DNA from: Terriglobia bacterium
GTDB taxonomy: Bacteria > Acidobacteriota > Terriglobia > JAJPHL01
Assembly: GCA_021325275.1 (NCBI GenBank)
Contig: JAJPHL010000071.1
Coordinates: 124,001-188,000, forward strand
Length of the DNA stretch: 64,000 bases
Direction: 5' to 3'
Shown: in pieces, positions 12,242-47,904 of the stretch
Position numbering within the stretch: position 1 is the stretch's first letter
Layout: the number at the start of each line of letters is the position of its first letter
The notes under the pieces: model-generated
Databases searched by the model: none
The model's input: only the letters and a program-made list of their open reading frames with translations
What the model was told of the DNA's origin: nothing
Made by a program: the position numbers and the translations under genes

Positions 12242-13639
12242 TTACGAATTGCTGTCGGTCCCGCGGAACTCCTTGAGGCGCGTCTGAAGTGTCCGCAGGC
12301 TGATGCCCAGCATTTCCGCGGCGAGCTTGCGGTTGTTCCCGGCGTGCTTCAGCGTAGCCTTGATGAAGGCTTCATCCGATTCACTGATGCGGTGACCGGG
12401 ATGCATCAAAACTTCACCGTTACCGGCCGGCGAGGCCTCGCCCGCAGACTTCGCGGAGAAAAACTGAGGCGGAAGATGCGTCAAGCGAATGTCTCCCACC
12501 GCCGCCACGATCGCGGCGCGCTCAATCACGTTGCGTAACTCGCGAGCATTGCCAGGCCAGTTGTAGGTGCTAAAAAGCGCCAACACCTCGGGGTCGAGAT
12601 TGCTTACGCGAGTGCCGTGCTTCTTGTTCAGCGCCTGAAGCATGACTTCGGCGATCAACGGAATATCTTCCTGGTGCTCGCGGAGCGGAGGCAGCACGAT
12701 CTGAAAGACGTTCAAGCGATAATAGAGATCCTCGCGCAGGTTGGCTCCCGGCGCCTGATTCGTCGCAGCCAAAATGCGCACGTTCACATCAATCTCTCCC
12801 TTGCCACCCAGTCGCTGCACCTTGGAATCTTCCAGGACGCGCAACAACTTCGCTTGCATCGCCGGAGCCATCTCGCCGATTTCATCCAGAAGCAGCGTGC
12901 CGCCATGAGCCCGCTCGAAGCATCCCGCGCGGCGCTCGGTGGCTCCCGTAAACGCGCCGCGTTCGTGACCGAATAACTCGCTTTCGATCAAAGTTTCCGG
13001 CAACGCCGCGGCATTCACCGCTACAAAGGGACCGTTCCTGCGAGGACTGAGCTTGTGGATCTCTCTGGCCACCAGTTCCTTGCCCGTGCCGCTCTCTCCA
13101 CAGATGAGTACGGGCGCCGAGGTCGGCCCGGCTTGCCGGATCACGGCATATACTTCCTGCATCGCCGCGGATTTTCCGACGAGGTCGCCGAGAACGCCGT
13201 GAAGCGTCAAGGTGTGCTTCATTTCTTCGGCTTCCCGCAAGGCGCGCGTGTGAAGAATGGCTCGCTCGATGAGGATTTCGAAGGCCTGCGGTTCCACGGG
13301 CTTTTCCAGAAACCAAAAGGCGCTCAAGTCGTGGACCACGCGCAGCGCTTTGTCCATGCTGCCGTAGCCGGTCAGCACGATCGTCGGCGTTGTATCACCG
13401 CGTTCCTTCAACAATTGGAGTAACTCGAAGCCGTCCATACCCGGCATCACCAAATCGGTGACGATGACATCGGGTGTGAAGGTGTTGAGTTTGTCCAGCG
13501 CCTGACGGCCGTCCTCGGCCACGCGGGTCTCGATATCGCCCTCGGCTAGAATGGCCTGCAGGACCGCAAGCTGGCGCTTGTCGTCGTCGACAAGTAAGAC
13601 TCGCCCCGAGACTTCGGGCAATGGTTTCAATAGCTTCAT
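12242..13639 (-). CDS. NtrC-family sigma-54-dependent response regulator
   Basis: A 465-residue three-domain activator. Residues 10-125 form a receiver with acidic pocket DDD and phospho-acceptor D62 in VIVTDLVMPG. Residues 150-380 form an AAA+ domain with Walker A GESGTGKE (181-188), the sigma-54-contacting GAFTGA loop (228-233) and Walker B GTLLLDEIGE. The C-terminus carries a Fis-type helix-turn-helix (NRKLAAEMLGISLRTLQTRL). It is an intact activator able to open sigma-54 promoters. No dedicated kinase gene is adjacent. It is the last gene of a five-gene run led by the lmo0937-like gene, which itself has a sigma-54-type promoter, so autoregulation is likely. The start is set by the receiver domain; 16 codons upstream are ignored. 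Confidence 0.95.
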   Translation of the reverse strand: MKLLKPLPEVSGRVLLVDDDKRQLAVLQAILAEGDIETRVAEDGRQALDKLNTFTPDVIVTDLVMPGMDGFELLQLLKERGDTTPTIVLTGYGSMDKALRVVHDLSAFWFLEKPVEPQAFEILIERAILHTRALREAEEMKHTLTLHGVLGDLVGKSAAMQEVYAVIRQAGPTSAPVLICGESGTGKELVAREIHKLSPRRNGPFVAVNAAALPETLIESELFGHERGAFTGATERRAGCFERAHGGTLLLDEIGEMAPAMQAKLLRVLEDSKVQRLGGKGEIDVNVRILAATNQAPGANLREDLYYRLNVFQIVLPPLREHQEDIPLIAEVMLQALNKKHGTRVSNLDPEVLALFSTYNWPGNARELRNVIERAAIVAAVGDIRLTHLPPQFFSAKSAGEASPAGNGEVLMHPGHRISESDEAFIKATLKHAGNNRKLAAEMLGISLRTLQTRLKEFRGTDSNS

Positions 13640-13652
13640 CGTAGCATGTTCG

Positions 13653-14144
13653 TTAGGCGGTGAGGCCCAACGGTCCGTTGTTCTCATCTTGGCACTCCAA
13701 ACAGCACTCCGCCCAGGGGACCGCTTGCAGGCGCCGCGGAGAGATTGCTTGCCCGCAGCGCAAGCAGATTCCGTAGGTGCCGTCTTTGATGCGCCGCAGC
13801 GCTGCTTCGATCAGGGTCAGGGCCTTGGCGTTGGCTTTGTTGCGATTCAAGAAGAGCCATTCCTGCTCGCTCTGCTGCGACATATCGCCGTAGTCGCCGG
13901 AGGTTTGTTGATACGCCACCACCGACGCCGCCCCGGTGCTCAGCATGCTTTTCAGCGTCGCGGCTTGCCGTTGCAATTCCGTTTGCTTAGCTCTCGCGGC
14001 TCTCCTGCCGGAGGCTGTGGTTGCGGCGGCTGTGGTTGCGACGGCCGTGGCCGCGACGGATTTAGATGCGCCACCGTTGGCGTGGGGTTCGCCAGCTCGA
14101 TTGATAACGACGTTTTTCGCTGTCTTCTTCGATGTCATGGTCAT
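13653..14144 (-). CDS. DksA/TraR-type zinc-finger protein
   Basis: A protein of about 163 residues. After a low-complexity Ala/Thr-rich N-terminus, residues 60-160 follow the DksA/TraR pattern: helical segment KQTELQRQAATLKSML, then ALTLIEAALRRIKDGTYGICLRCGQAISPRRLQAVPWAECCLECQ, which holds the C4 zinc finger. Family members bind in the RNA polymerase secondary channel or act as small regulatory proteins. The helical arm lacks the clear DxxDxA tip of true DksA, so it is better called DksA-like. The start at 14144 has an AAGAGAG ribosome site. It lies between two response regulators in one run of genes. Confidence 0.85.
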   Translation of the reverse strand: MTMTSKKTAKNVVINRAGEPHANGGASKSVAATAVATTAAATTASGRRAARAKQTELQRQAATLKSMLSTGAASVVAYQQTSGDYGDMSQQSEQEWLFLNRNKANAKALTLIEAALRRIKDGTYGICLRCGQAISPRRLQAVPWAECCLECQDENNGPLGLTA

Positions 14145-37737: not shown

Positions 37738-38337
37738 CTACTGGCCGGGGCCCGAAGTCTGTTTGGCCCGCACGATGAACCGCTTGGGGGCGTTGCCGAT
37801 GTAGAAAAATGGATAGCAGGTGACCATGGTCAGCACATTTTCCTGCGACGGCGCCAACACCTCAATGTCTTCCGGCGCGACGACGCGCAAGGATTCCACT
37901 TCATAGGTGAACTCGCCGTCCATGGTCGAGAATCCGATGCTGTCGCCCGTATGCAAGTCGCCCAGCCGCCGGAAAAACGTGTCGCGATGCGCCGCTACGC
38001 CGACGTTCCCCCGTTGACCCGGAAACGGTGTCGACGGAATGTGCCCCACGGCGGTCCGCAGCGTTTTCGCGTCATCGCCCTCGCTGACCATGGCCGACAG
38101 GCGCAGCTTGGGAATCCAGATCCGCCCGACAATGGAATGATGGGGAGAATCGGCCGGCAAGCGCCGGGCCTGGGCCCCTTCAAGACGCAACGGCGCAACC
38201 TGTTGTAAGTCGCGATCGAACGTCCAGGCCGCGTAGGCTTGCGATGCCGCGCGTTCGCCGAAGACAAACCCGTAAGTCGCCAAGCAACCCACTCCGACAA
38301 TCAATAGCAAGCCGCGAATCGGCGAGAGCGCTCTCAT
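37738..38337 (-). CDS. class D-like sortase
   Basis: A 199-residue sortase with an N-terminal membrane helix (GLLLIVGVGCLATYGFVFG). The catalytic residues are present: His in GVAAHRDTFF (H117), Cys in MVTCYPFFY (C174) and Arg in KRFIVRA (R186 or R190). The TCYPF wording and HSIVGRIWIPKLRLSAMVSEGDDAKTL N-terminal strands fit class D sortases, some of which recognise LPNTA-type signals. The gene overlaps the VWA gene by four bases and lies 0.9 kb from a gene encoding an LPATA protein, its likely substrate. Sortases are uncommon in diderm bacteria, and what the substrate is linked to is not known here. Confidence 0.92.
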   Translation of the reverse strand: MRALSPIRGLLLIVGVGCLATYGFVFGERAASQAYAAWTFDRDLQQVAPLRLEGAQARRLPADSPHHSIVGRIWIPKLRLSAMVSEGDDAKTLRTAVGHIPSTPFPGQRGNVGVAAHRDTFFRRLGDLHTGDSIGFSTMDGEFTYEVESLRVVAPEDIEVLAPSQENVLTMVTCYPFFYIGNAPKRFIVRAKQTSGPGQ

Positions 38338-39218
38338 GGCACCAAATAGCTGGTGCGCGTCCGCACGGTCAGCTTCTGCCCGTCGCGTTGCGCAGCCACT
38401 TTAATCTTGCGCAGCGATCCCTTGGCTTGGTCGCCCACCGGGACGTAGCCGATCGTGTAGCGGGCGCGCATATCGCTGGCCACGCGCCGGCAAATCTCGG
38501 TGACTTGGGAAGTCTCTTGCGGTAGATACGTTTCGCCGCCGCTCACGCCGGACAGTTGACGCAGCAGACCGGGATTCCGATCCTCATCGCTCTCGTCGAA
38601 CAGCCCGATGGTATAGATGGTCGCGCGCGATTCCTGAACCATGCGCCTGACTTCGTCAAGGGTGTGGGTACTGTGGTTGTCGCCGCCGTCGCTGACCAGA
38701 ACCAGCGTTTTTTTGTCGCGCTGACCTAGCTGAAGATGCTTCAAGGCGATGGTAATCGCGTCGTAGAGCGCCGTCCGGCCTTCGGGCCTGGCCATCGAGA
38801 GCGCCGCGCGCAGTTGATTGACGTTGTCGCTGAAAGGCAGTTCGGCGGGCAGACCCATGGAGACCGCATCGTTGAAGTTCACGATGAATATTTCATCGCG
38901 AGGATTGCTCGCCGAGATAAAGGCCATCGCCGCGGTGACCACTTCGTTGTACTTCGTCTGCATGCTCCCGCTGGTATCGATGACCAAGCCAATGGTGACG
39001 GGAACGTCTTCGCGGGAGAAGTGCGTAATGGTTTGAAGCTTGCCGTTTTCGAAGACCTGGAAGTTGTCCTTGGAAAGATCGGGGGCGTATCCGCCTTTGG
39101 AGTTTTTGACGCTCACATCCAGCAGCACAAAATTGGAGGTCGAAGAGAACTTGACATCCTGCGCGGCGGCGGCCGTCAGAAAAACCAGCAACGCGAGAGT
39201 GGCAGAGATACGCTTCAC
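38334..39218 (-). CDS. secreted VWFA-related protein (acidobacterial type)
   Basis: A 294-residue exported protein with a signal peptide ending AAAAQD. It carries NFVLLDVSVKNSKGGYAPDLSKDNFQVFENGK, the entry to the acidobacterial VWFA-related domain. The metal-ion-dependent adhesion site is VIDTSGSM (81-86), with later LVLVSDGGDNHSTHT. It probably binds a protein partner through a divalent ion. The start is GTG. It has no sorting signal of its own, so it may help present or assemble the LPATA protein for the sortase encoded by the next, overlapping gene. Confidence 0.9.
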   Translation of the reverse strand: MKRISATLALLVFLTAAAAQDVKFSSTSNFVLLDVSVKNSKGGYAPDLSKDNFQVFENGKLQTITHFSREDVPVTIGLVIDTSGSMQTKYNEVVTAAMAFISASNPRDEIFIVNFNDAVSMGLPAELPFSDNVNQLRAALSMARPEGRTALYDAITIALKHLQLGQRDKKTLVLVSDGGDNHSTHTLDEVRRMVQESRATIYTIGLFDESDEDRNPGLLRQLSGVSGGETYLPQETSQVTEICRRVASDMRARYTIGYVPVGDQAKGSLRKIKVAAQRDGQKLTVRTRTSYLVP

Positions 39219-39280
39219 ACAATCCCGAATTTCTCCGCCGGCTCGACCAGCGATTCCGCTGGCCGGCCGACAGAAACATG

Positions 39281-40006
39281 CTACGCGGAGCGCTTGCGCT
39301 TGCTGAAGAACAGCATCCCGCTCGCGGACGAAAGCAGACCGATCAAGCCGATCAACGGCATCGGGCTGGCGGTCGCCGGGAGCGCAGGCGTTACCGGCGC
39401 TGCGGCGACGGGCATCGGATCCGCAGCCGGCGTCGGAGCCGCTTCAACAGTTGCGACTGGCGCGACGTAAGCCGGAACTTCAACCGGCTCCACGACGACG
39501 CCGGTCGGTTGCGCGACGGCTACCTTGGCAGTTTTCAACTCCGCGTCCGTGGCCACTTCGACCACCGGGACGGGAGCTTTCCCGAATGCAGCGATACCCA
39601 CGGCCACATCCTTGGGATACGCAAACTCTTGGCCGAAATTATCGCCTGGGTAGAACCAAGCGCGCATGGCCTTGGTCTGTCCGGCCGGAACTTCCCAGAA
39701 AGTGAACGCCGACTTGCCGGTGACGGTCAAGCGATAGTTGGGAATCGCCAGAATCGTGGTGATCACGGTCTTCCCATCCTCGGCGAAAACGCGGACAATG
39801 TGGCGGTCCGCGGAGGAATCGACGAGCACCATGACGTACGTTCCGGGCTGCAGCGTGACGCTGTGGTCGGGATCGCAGCAGGACGGCATCCGGATCGGCT
39901 CCGTAATGGTCAGCGTGGTTTTCTTGTTCCATTCGTCCGCGTGGACGCTGGGCACCAGCAGAAGGCCGGCGATTGCTGTTAGCACAAGACTAGATAGAAA
40001 CTTCAT
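39281..40006 (-). CDS. surface protein with LPATA sortase signal
   Basis: A 241-residue exported protein. The signal peptide is MKFLSSLVLTAIAGLLLVPSVHAD. Residues 25-150 form a beta-domain (TLTITEPIRMPSCCDPDHSVTLQPGTYV, HIVRVFAEDGKTVITTI, FTFWEVPAGQTKAMRAWFYPGD). Residues 165-205 are Pro/Ala/Val-rich. The C-terminus is LPATA at 209-213, then a hydrophobic stretch (PLIGLIGLLSSASGMLFF) and KRKRSA, the complete layout of a sortase signal. The start at 40006 is chosen by the signal peptide and AAGGAG 13 bases upstream. It precedes the VWA and sortase genes on the same strand. Ligand unknown. Confidence 0.9.
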   Translation of the reverse strand: MKFLSSLVLTAIAGLLLVPSVHADEWNKKTTLTITEPIRMPSCCDPDHSVTLQPGTYVMVLVDSSADRHIVRVFAEDGKTVITTILAIPNYRLTVTGKSAFTFWEVPAGQTKAMRAWFYPGDNFGQEFAYPKDVAVGIAAFGKAPVPVVEVATDAELKTAKVAVAQPTGVVVEPVEVPAYVAPVATVEAAPTPAADPMPVAAAPVTPALPATASPMPLIGLIGLLSSASGMLFFSKRKRSA

Positions 40007-40064: not shown

Positions 40065-40080
40065 GGCAGGCGGAGCACCA
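40065..40080 (-). promoter_or_regulatory. sigma-54-type promoter for the LPATA/VWA/sortase run
   Basis: Minus-strand TGGTGCTCCGCCTGCC keeps GG-N10-GC with CTGC at -12, 59-74 bp before the ATG. Confidence 0.6.
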
Positions 40081-40158: not shown

Positions 40159-40161
40159 GAA

Positions 40162-40290
40162 GGGGAAAAACGCAAATCAAAAATCAACAATCAAAGATCA
40201 AAAATCAAAAATGGGGAACAAAACAATGCCCCGTTCTTCACTTTTGATTTTTGCCTTTTGATTTTTGATTTTTGATTTGCGTTTTCCCCC
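40162..40290. repeat. 129-base imperfect inverted repeat made of ATCAAAA units
   Basis: The left arm (40162-40212) holds five ATCAA-type units between GGGGAAAAACGCAAATC and ATGGGG. The right arm repeats the complement, TTTGATTTTTG, and ends GATTTGCGTTTTCCCC. It ends exactly at the stop codon of the phospholipase gene. It may act as a terminator for that gene, but the heptamer repetition is odd for a plain terminator. Confidence 0.7.
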
Positions 40291-41577
40291 TCATTCGTCG
40301 CGTGTCGGTGAAGCGGGGACCGCTTGTTTCAACTGATCCAGTTGCGCCAGCGCTTGCTGCCAGCGGGCGGCATCCTTTTTCGTCGCGTTCGCTGCCGCAG
40401 GGTCGGCATAGAAGCGCAGAATATCGGCGCGTAACTCCGGCGAGACCTGGCTGAAGTTATTCTTCGCCAGTTGACCCAAGAGTTTGGCGTAAGCATCGTC
40501 GGTCAACTCGTATTCCGCGGCTTTGGTCGGCTGGCCGGTATCGAAGTCGCAGTTCGGAAGGCGCAGCGTCGACGAACCGACTTCCGCGATGAACAGCTTG
40601 TATCGATCCACGGTCGCCAGGATGCTTTTGAAGTACAGGTCTTCCGTCTGAGGCGTGGGATAGTTGAAAGCCATCGCCTTGAACGGTCCGATTTTGGGCA
40701 TTTCACGCAGGAGTGTGGATAGCACGCGCGTACCGAAGCCGGGCTTCACGTAGTCCTTGCCCCACTTTTTCTCGTAGTCGGAGCGCGACAGGCGGAAAAG
40801 AAACTTCCGCTTATTGACGGTGGACTTCTCCGCGAGAATTTCCTTCTTGTGGGTTTGCAACGCAACCTTGGTCATCTCCGGAATCATGCGGCTGACGGCC
40901 CATCGATAGGAACCGATGGCCAGATCTTCGTGCGCCAACACGTCTGTCAATTCCAAGCCGTAGACGGATGGAAAGACGCGTTCCAGGAGGGGCTTCGACA
41001 CTTGAAACCCGATGAACTGATGATACTGCTCCGAGGCATAGCGATTCTTTGCCACCTGCGTCGTGTCGAATCCGAACTCGATCCGCAAGTGGGCATTCTT
41101 GTTGTCCGCATAACGGACCGAGTTGCCGAACTTCGCGCGCAGTTTGGGATACTCGATGGCCACGGCCCGATTCACCGAGGGATGACCGGTGATGTCGGCG
41201 GCATAGTGCGAGAGCGCACCGAGCGCGAACGCGAACTCGTTGAGGTCCTGGCTCTGGTCGAGCAGCGCGATGACGAAATCGCCGCTGCGAACGTAGTGCG
41301 CCAGATTGCTGAATTCCACGCTGCCGAACGGATAGTAGCCCAGATCCTGGATCACCGCGCCGCCATAAGCGTAGGCATGCGCGGCGGTGATTTGGTCGGC
41401 GGTGGAATCCGGAAAGCGTTTCAACAGCAGAGGCTTGATAGAATCGGTCCACAGCAAGTCGACGATTTCTTCATGCGTCAAGACCGAGTAGGCCCAAACG
41501 GGCATACTTCCCGCCATCGCCAGAAAGATGAAGACCAGGACCACGGTCGTGACTTGTGCCGTTCTCGGTAGTGCCAT
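40291..41577 (-). CDS. secreted zinc-dependent phospholipase C-like protein
   Basis: A 428-residue exported protein; the signal peptide ends MPVWAYS. It has the histidine pattern of the zinc-dependent phospholipase C/S1-P1 nuclease fold: LTHEEIVDLLW, AYAYGGAVIQDLGYYPFG, FALGALSHYAADITGHPSVN and AIEYPKLRAKFG. Members hydrolyse phospholipids or have related phosphoester activity, but many in this group are uncharacterised. The C-terminal 200 residues are helical and not recognised. The ATG at 41577 follows ACAGGAGAG. It is separated from the upstream gene by a strong hairpin, so it is probably transcribed on its own. Confidence 0.85.
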   Translation of the reverse strand: MALPRTAQVTTVVLVFIFLAMAGSMPVWAYSVLTHEEIVDLLWTDSIKPLLLKRFPDSTADQITAAHAYAYGGAVIQDLGYYPFGSVEFSNLAHYVRSGDFVIALLDQSQDLNEFAFALGALSHYAADITGHPSVNRAVAIEYPKLRAKFGNSVRYADNKNAHLRIEFGFDTTQVAKNRYASEQYHQFIGFQVSKPLLERVFPSVYGLELTDVLAHEDLAIGSYRWAVSRMIPEMTKVALQTHKKEILAEKSTVNKRKFLFRLSRSDYEKKWGKDYVKPGFGTRVLSTLLREMPKIGPFKAMAFNYPTPQTEDLYFKSILATVDRYKLFIAEVGSSTLRLPNCDFDTGQPTKAAEYELTDDAYAKLLGQLAKNNFSQVSPELRADILRFYADPAAANATKKDAARWQQALAQLDQLKQAVPASPTRDE

Positions 41578-43177: not shown

Positions 43178-44095
43178 CTAGCGTTTCCTGCGGGTCTTGG
43201 CCAGCGCCAACAGTCCGCCGCCGAGCAAAAATAGCGTGGACGGTTCCGGCGTAGCGCCCGATGGCGCCAGAGACGCTGCGCCGCAATAGGTAGTTCCACT
43301 GGCGGCCGTGTAACTGGCGTTGGGCGTTGCGATGTCCACGCACGTGGTCGCATCGGCGCTGAACGTTAGCGATGACGATCCGAGTTGGGGGTTGGAGGAC
43401 ACAAAATATGGGTCTTGCGTGGGGTGTGCCCAAAAGCTTCCGAAGATCGAGACGTTGAGCGTCAGCGAGCAACCCACCTCGGTGTCCACCGCCAGCATCT
43501 GCGTGCTGTCGCCGACACCCAGAATGAAGCTGGTGGGCATTGTTCCGCATGCACCAGGTTCGTTGTCGCTCACTTGCAGGCCGACTTGGAAGGGGTCGCC
43601 GGTTCCCGCAGCCCCGTCGCCCGTCGTGCCGATCAAGAGGCTTAGCAGCGACTGTTCCGTCAAATCGACCTCCACCGGTGAGCCGGACGCCAACGTATCC
43701 GATGTGATTGCCAGCGTGTCTTGGAAGCCAGACAAGTACGGCGCTCCGTACGGGTGGTCGATGAACTGATTGCCACTCCACGGGAAGGTGGTGTCCCAAG
43801 CGGATACTGCTCCGGAAGCGTCCAATTGCCCTATGCCGGCGGATGCCGAGTACGACGAACTGACGCCCGATCCGTCCGATATTGTGTAGCCACCTGAGCC
43901 CGAAGTCGAGATCGGAACGGATCCAGGGAGCTCCGATATATTTCCAGGCGGGGAGCAGTTGCTTCCGCAGCGTATATTGAGGCCCAACCCATAGGTGTAA
44001 TACGGAGTGCTGAAAATGCCTCCGATGGAATCGGCGTGAACAGCTTGCGTCAAAGCGAACGCAGCGAGTATTACCGACAGTAACTTTATCTTCAT
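43178..44095 (-). CDS. PEP-CTERM surface protein
   Basis: A 305-residue exported protein with signal peptide MKIKLLSVILAAFALTQAVHAD. It ends ATPEPSTLFLLGGGLLALAKTRRKR: PEP box, hydrophobic helix and basic tail, the signal for exosortase-type processing. The middle is Ser/Gly-rich and beta-prone, with four cysteines (IRCGSNCSPP, EPGACGT, EVGCSL) but no named domain. CGGAGG precedes the ATG. No exosortase gene is in the window. With the LPATA protein at 39 kb, the organism uses two kinds of C-terminal sorting within a short distance. Confidence 0.9.
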   Translation of the reverse strand: MKIKLLSVILAAFALTQAVHADSIGGIFSTPYYTYGLGLNIRCGSNCSPPGNISELPGSVPISTSGSGGYTISDGSGVSSSYSASAGIGQLDASGAVSAWDTTFPWSGNQFIDHPYGAPYLSGFQDTLAITSDTLASGSPVEVDLTEQSLLSLLIGTTGDGAAGTGDPFQVGLQVSDNEPGACGTMPTSFILGVGDSTQMLAVDTEVGCSLTLNVSIFGSFWAHPTQDPYFVSSNPQLGSSSLTFSADATTCVDIATPNASYTAASGTTYCGAASLAPSGATPEPSTLFLLGGGLLALAKTRRKR

Positions 44096-47160: not shown

Positions 47161-47904
47161 GTGAAAAAACTGACTGTTCTGACCATTCTGACAATCGCGG
47201 GATCGATGTTAATCGCCGCGGCGCCCTGTTCGGCCGACGCTTTAACGGTTTCCTATTTTACGATGAACTCAAGCGACCCCGACGTGGGCAACGGTGGGGA
47301 CTACACCGTTGCGACGACGTTGGGACCGAACGGTTTGCCGGTTTGGACGGGCGGACAACAGTTAAATGATCTGAATGGGTCTAACGAGATCGAATGGTGG
47401 GCTCCGAGTTTCGACTCGTTCATCACCGCAACCGGCACCGGTTCGTTAACGGTTCCCTTCGATGTGTCGATGTACACGCCGAACGGCACGGGCAGCAGCG
47501 ATGGCGGAACGAACGGCTTTCAGGCGGCGGTTCTCACCGGCAATTTCAGCGTGACATCCCCCGAGCAAGTTACCTTCGATCTGGGATCGGACGACGACTC
47601 ATTCCTCTACGTCGACGGGTCGCTGGTCGCGGCGATTCCGGGAATTCATGGCGATAGTTCGACGTCTTACACCACCAGCCAGTTGGGCGTCGGCGACCAT
47701 TCCCTCGTACTCTTCTATACGGATCGCGAGCCGGTGGGTGCGGAGCTTTCCTTGTCCATCGAGACGCAGGGCCTTGGTGTCACAGGCGGCGACCCCTTCA
47801 CGGCGGGCACGCCTGAACCGGGAACCTTGCTGTTGCTCGGTAGCGGAATGCTGGCTCTCGGACGTTTCACTCGCCGCAAACTCGCGACGTCTGCAAAGAA
47901 CTAA
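47161..47904 (+). CDS. PEP-CTERM protein with fibro-slime/PA14-like domain
   Basis: A 247-residue exported protein starting at GTG, preceded by AGAGGAAACGACTC. The signal peptide is KKLTVLTILTIAGSMLIAAAPCSAD. The middle reads GGTNGFQAAVLTGNFSVTSPEQVTFDLGSDDDSFLYVDGSLVAAIPGIHG and LGVGDHSLVLFYTDREPVGAELSLSIE, the pattern of PA14/fibro-slime beta-sandwiches. The end is GTPEPGTLLLLGSGMLALGRFTRRK, a full PEP-CTERM signal. It is the second such protein within 4 kb. Confidence 0.9.
   Translation: MKKLTVLTILTIAGSMLIAAAPCSADALTVSYFTMNSSDPDVGNGGDYTVATTLGPNGLPVWTGGQQLNDLNGSNEIEWWAPSFDSFITATGTGSLTVPFDVSMYTPNGTGSSDGGTNGFQAAVLTGNFSVTSPEQVTFDLGSDDDSFLYVDGSLVAAIPGIHGDSSTSYTTSQLGVGDHSLVLFYTDREPVGAELSLSIETQGLGVTGGDPFTAGTPEPGTLLLLGSGMLALGRFTRRKLATSAKN

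Follow-up and report, generated by a model that had tools for sequence, protein, structure and literature searches.

A conserved cassette of a class D-like sortase, a secreted VWA protein and a probable LPxT-tailed substrate in diderm acidobacteria

Introduction

Protein anchoring by sortases belongs to the textbook knowledge of single-membrane bacteria, and for bacteria with an outer membrane only small dedicated sortase pairs are described in the literature that we searched. In Bacillus anthracis, a class D sortase with a preference for the signal LPNTA(S) attaches proteins to peptidoglycan (PMC3208642, PMC4498605). For the exosortase/PEP-CTERM system, a role in processing proteins for export has been proposed, and sigma-54 sites occur before its proteobacterial substrate genes (PMC1569441). 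Our literature search on acidobacterial sortases returned no description of a system and a single gene-count table entry, which credits Solibacter with 6 sortases (PMC3174227). Here we analyze a three-gene cassette found in a 64,000-nucleotide stretch of acidobacterial DNA (the window). This cassette occurs across a large soil phylum; both its signal and its substrate family are sharply delimited, and with it the target of sortase attachment in a diderm becomes directly testable.

Results

The three genes lie on the minus strand in the order substrate (39281–40006), VWA protein (38334–39218) and sortase (37738–38337). The sortase has 199 amino acids, an N-terminal membrane helix and the catalytic residues H117, C174 and R186. 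It had been predicted to be complete, and this is borne out by its match to PF04203 (103.9 bits vs. 26.6, E 6.6e-30) and by the presence of the three residues, unchanged, in all 24 acidobacterial homologs compared. The VWA gene has a GTG start and encodes a protein of 294 amino acids with a signal-peptide-like N-terminus, a DTSGS metal-site motif and a match to TIGR03436 (acidobact_VWFA, 194 bits); its stop codon overlaps the start codon of the sortase gene in the sequence ATGA, in agreement with the proposed overlap of the sortase with a secreted VWA gene. The end of the substrate gene and the VWA start are 62 bp apart. The substrate, of 241 amino acids, consists of a signal peptide, a beta domain (39572–39937, minus strand, residues 24–145) that is conserved across 56 aligned homologs, a Pro/Ala-rich linker and a C-terminal sorting signal, LPATASPMPLIGLIGLLSSASGMLFFSKRKRSA (39284–39382, minus strand, residues 209–241), in which LPATAS, with T212/A213 as the expected cleavage point, is followed by a hydrophobic helix and KRKRSA. 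This tail had been recognized in the original prediction, and it passes the TIGR01167 model of LPXTG-type sorting signals (20.7 bits, cut-off 15.9), while it falls below the cut-off of Pfam PF00746 (17.3 vs. 20). No sorting tail was found in the window VWA protein or in 71 VWA open reading frames of related loci. As for the host, BamA is clear in the genome (TIGR03303, 440 bits), so that the cell, judged from its gene content, is a diderm, as had been claimed. In the gap that separates the cassette from the gene upstream lies a 59-nt inverted repeat with TGATTTT-type heptamers (40161–40219 and 40233–40291, hairpin z −8.1), of which a 23-nt run has 11 copies in the genome (reversed control, 0). 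The window also encodes two PEP-CTERM proteins (43178–44095 and 47161–47904), whose tail type belongs to a separate exosortase system.

We assigned no fold to the beta domain. A Foldseek comparison against solved structures yielded no match at E ≤ 0.001, a second fold comparison gave a best Z of 4.2 over 40 residues, and a weak sequence link to DUF2911 was seen in 3 of 56 members.

By sequence comparison, the window sortase is nearest to class D and not to the proteobacterial class GN. The solved structures closest to it in sequence are both class D enzymes, 2ln7 from B. anthracis (E 4e-37) followed by 4d70 from Clostridium perfringens (E 2e-30), and it narrowly passes the NCBIfam model NF058671 for class D enzymes specific for LPxTATN (144.2 bits, cut-off 140), which upholds the earlier proposal that a class D enzyme and an LPNTA-like signal fit each other. 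We call it class D-like because it did not reach the cut-off of the broader class D model NF033746 (129.4 vs. 165 bits). The second sortase of the genome scores just under the NF058671 cut-off (134.8 vs. 140). Fold comparison alone matched the window sortase to class C, D and E enzymes, and the class C (pilin sortase) model was not reached (69.6 vs. 160 bits). Class GN was rejected both for the enzyme, which scores 81.5 bits on TIGR03784 against a cut-off of 158.25, and for the system, as the window VWA protein is tail-less and scores 28.1 on TIGR03788 against 551.65; a true GN sortase from locus L030, used as a positive control, scored 169.3 on TIGR03784. The latter locus, from another acidobacterium (genome G013), encodes a class GN sortase together with a tailed VWA target. 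Thus the original view that the cassette differs from the proteobacterial pairs, in that a beta-domain protein rather than the VWA protein is tailed, stands.

To describe the surroundings of related sortases, we scanned bacterial and archaeal genomes with an alignment of acidobacterial sortases and retained 80 loci that carry the name of an Acidobacteriota lineage in their titles; in each of these, LPxT tails, VWA proteins and beta-domain proteins were identified by script. As these loci were selected by similarity to the window sortase, the figures describe its close family: the order substrate, VWA, sortase on one strand was found in 59 of the 80 loci, and in 55 of the 69 that are not cut at a contig end, or 57 when L108 and L112, which the distance rule of the script had missed, were read by hand. 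The co-occurrence in relatives on which the original prediction depended is thus present; the three-gene arrangement is not due to chance, and the set is conserved in relatives. An LPxT-tailed protein lies upstream, beside the sortase, in 67 of the 69 loci, with a tail consensus LPxT(A/G)SxxPL (n = 72: T in 71; A in 60, G in 8 and S in 4; then S in 68, P in 64 and L in 58). The same four loci (L048–L051) are nearest to the window for each of the three genes, which indicates that the cassette was inherited as a unit.

A wider panel of 159 genomes from acidobacteria, with a completeness of 90% or more, gave a consistent picture at the genome level. Sortases are patchily distributed (31 of 159), and the tail, counted at E below 1e-5, occurs in 22 genomes; all 22 have a sortase, and the tail is absent from all 128 genomes that lack one (hypergeometric P 3.9e-20), in counts that refer to a tail model derived from tails adjoining sortases, behind which other tail types could be hidden. 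The tail lies within 1.9 kb of a sortase in 21 of the 22 genomes, G208 being the exception. Of the 17 genomes in which the beta domain was found, 14 have a sortase and the other three have short tail-less forms. The pairing of sortase and tail is well supported. In the window genome itself there are two sortases and four tailed proteins in all (E below 5e-12; the next match is at 0.15): the window substrate with LPATAS; an LPKTGS paralog adjoining the second sortase, in a pair that lacks a VWA gene (L002, 1471–3008); a third beta-domain protein, which has LPKTAS and directly follows an OmpA-domain gene (L222); and a Pro/Gln-rich protein, again with LPKTAS, in the vicinity of a mechanosensitive channel gene. 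Given this second pair and the two further tailed proteins, the window sortase need not serve its neighbor alone.

The place of the VWA protein in the system deserves separate consideration, as its family is expanded in this genome, with 33 matches (about 30 members), one per about 230 kb. It is conceivable, if rather unlikely, that the VWA gene is a passenger placed there through this expansion and that the system comprises only the sortase and the tailed protein, a view favored by the size of the family and by the lack of a VWA gene in 10–12 of the 69 loci and in the second pair. These VWA-less loci do establish that the VWA protein is not required for the pairing of sortase and substrate. 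However, at the density given above, repeated siting directly before sortases is unlikely by chance, the ATGA overlap is shared by many loci, and sortase-linked VWA proteins cluster in the tree, with 7 changes of label where shuffles give 20.3, without forming one single clade. Particularly, the window VWA protein stands apart from most VWA paralogs of its genome and joins those of L048–L051 in a clade with 100/97 support, within a group of sortase-linked VWA proteins.

A sigma-54-type promoter had also been proposed to drive the set. The −24/−12 site of the window, TGGTGCTCCGCCTGCC (40065–40080, minus strand), located 74 nt upstream of the substrate start codon, is weak when taken alone, as it has 7 of 11 matches, a best match reached by 30% of shuffled upstream regions. 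In relatives, with GG-N10-GC spacing, 28 of 54 substrate upstream regions reach 8 of 11, compared with 2–6 at ten wrong spacings and with 11% of other upstream regions; the 54 regions come from related loci and do not amount to 54 independent events. The window site aligns with better sites in L048–L051. The proposal thus finds its support in the spacing-specific site of the relatives and little in the window site, and the sequences suggest that the operon is under sigma-54 control in relatives and probably here. The remaining three tailed genes of the genome are preceded by no convincing sigma-54 site (absent or weak). A sigma-54-activating response regulator is encoded elsewhere in the window (12242–13687).

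Discussion

Taken together, our observations lead us to favor, with moderate confidence, a dedicated diderm sortase system that would cleave its substrate between Thr and Ala and transfer it to the diaminopimelate of peptidoglycan, with the VWA protein in an accessory role. After export by Sec, the beta-domain protein would be retained in the inner membrane through its C-terminal helix; there the sortase, itself held by an N-terminal helix and turned toward the periplasm, would cut LPAT|A through C174. We infer cleavage and transfer from the enzyme family. The transfer would be to an amino group, most likely, by analogy, the free meso-diaminopimelate amine of a peptidoglycan precursor or stem peptide, which we favor because a related class D enzyme anchors proteins to such a wall and because this genome makes diaminopimelate: its MurE carries DNPR, presumably the motif of diaminopimelate-adding enzymes. 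The outcome would be a beta domain tethered to the thin cell wall by a linker of about 60–75 residues. The VWA protein may be a secreted accessory whose metal site perhaps serves to hold the substrate or some binding partner, and the operon would be turned on by sigma-54 in relatives and probably here.

Among the other fates of the cleaved protein, we give only a small chance to mere clipping of the tail, in which hydrolysis of the acyl-enzyme, or transfer to a small amine, would free the protein to the periplasm, the outer membrane or the outside. The wall of diderms is thin and internal, and the export processing proposed for their exosortase/PEP-CTERM systems, whose proteobacterial substrate genes likewise have sigma-54 sites, offers a precedent (PMC1569441). 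Nevertheless, sortases with such a triad are normally transpeptidases, and the long linker suits a wall-bound protein, both of which argue for anchoring. Slightly less probable still is an acceptor other than peptidoglycan, either a protein or a glycan, which the VWA protein would present to a sortase that assembles a covalent protein complex or an outer-surface structure of the diderm under sigma-54 control.

Finally, the sortase could polymerize or link proteins as pilin sortases do, joining the LPAT carboxyl either to a lysine of an adjacent subunit, for example K132 of the YPK sequence, or to one in the VWA protein. At the end of the beta domain stands EF(A/V)YPK, which we take to resemble the YPK motif of Gram-positive pilins; of 86 tailed proteins, 75 have a lysine at the YPK place, as does only one of eight rows without a tail. 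Moreover, the cassette includes a VWA domain, a type common at pilus tips. Of all the readings we consider this one the least likely, since an obligate acceptor would forbid the replacements seen at the YPK place in 11 of the 86 tailed proteins (Arg in 7 and 4 others without Lys, among 94 beta-domain rows), the most conserved VWA lysine is also replaced (K in 57 of 62, R in 3), the class C score is low, and each protein has a single beta domain. The YPK lysine was accordingly downgraded as a pilin-like acceptor, and a VWA lysine was rejected, none being strictly conserved.

Compared with known systems, the anchoring system that we favor shares features with several of them. The class GN system of marine proteobacteria (TIGR03784 with its target TIGR03788) is likewise a Gram-negative, dedicated pair that involves a VWA domain, but there the VWA protein itself is tailed, whereas here it is untailed and a third protein bears the tail, and both model scores are far under their cut-offs. 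With PEP-CTERM/exosortase our cassette has in common a tripartite C-terminal tail, envelope proteins of diderms and sigma-54 sites before substrate genes, yet the exosortase is an unrelated multi-pass membrane protein and its signal is PEP, not LPxT. The closest enzymes come from monoderms. C. perfringens SrtD, second nearest among solved structures, has another substrate and no VWA protein, while B. anthracis SrtC, a class D enzyme that acts on the LPNTA signals of BasH and BasI, has a role in sporulation and no VWA gene; here the host is a diderm and the beta-domain substrates have no assigned Pfam domain. In their signals, however, these enzymes come near to those studied here. SrtC, the nearest solved structure, shares an LPxTA(S) signal with the window substrate, and SrtD, whose substrate is encoded in the same operon, recognizes LPQTGS, as compared with LPKTGS in the second pair of the window genome, so that the LPATAS and LPKTGS of this genome match the LPNTA(S) and LPQTGS preferences of these two enzymes.
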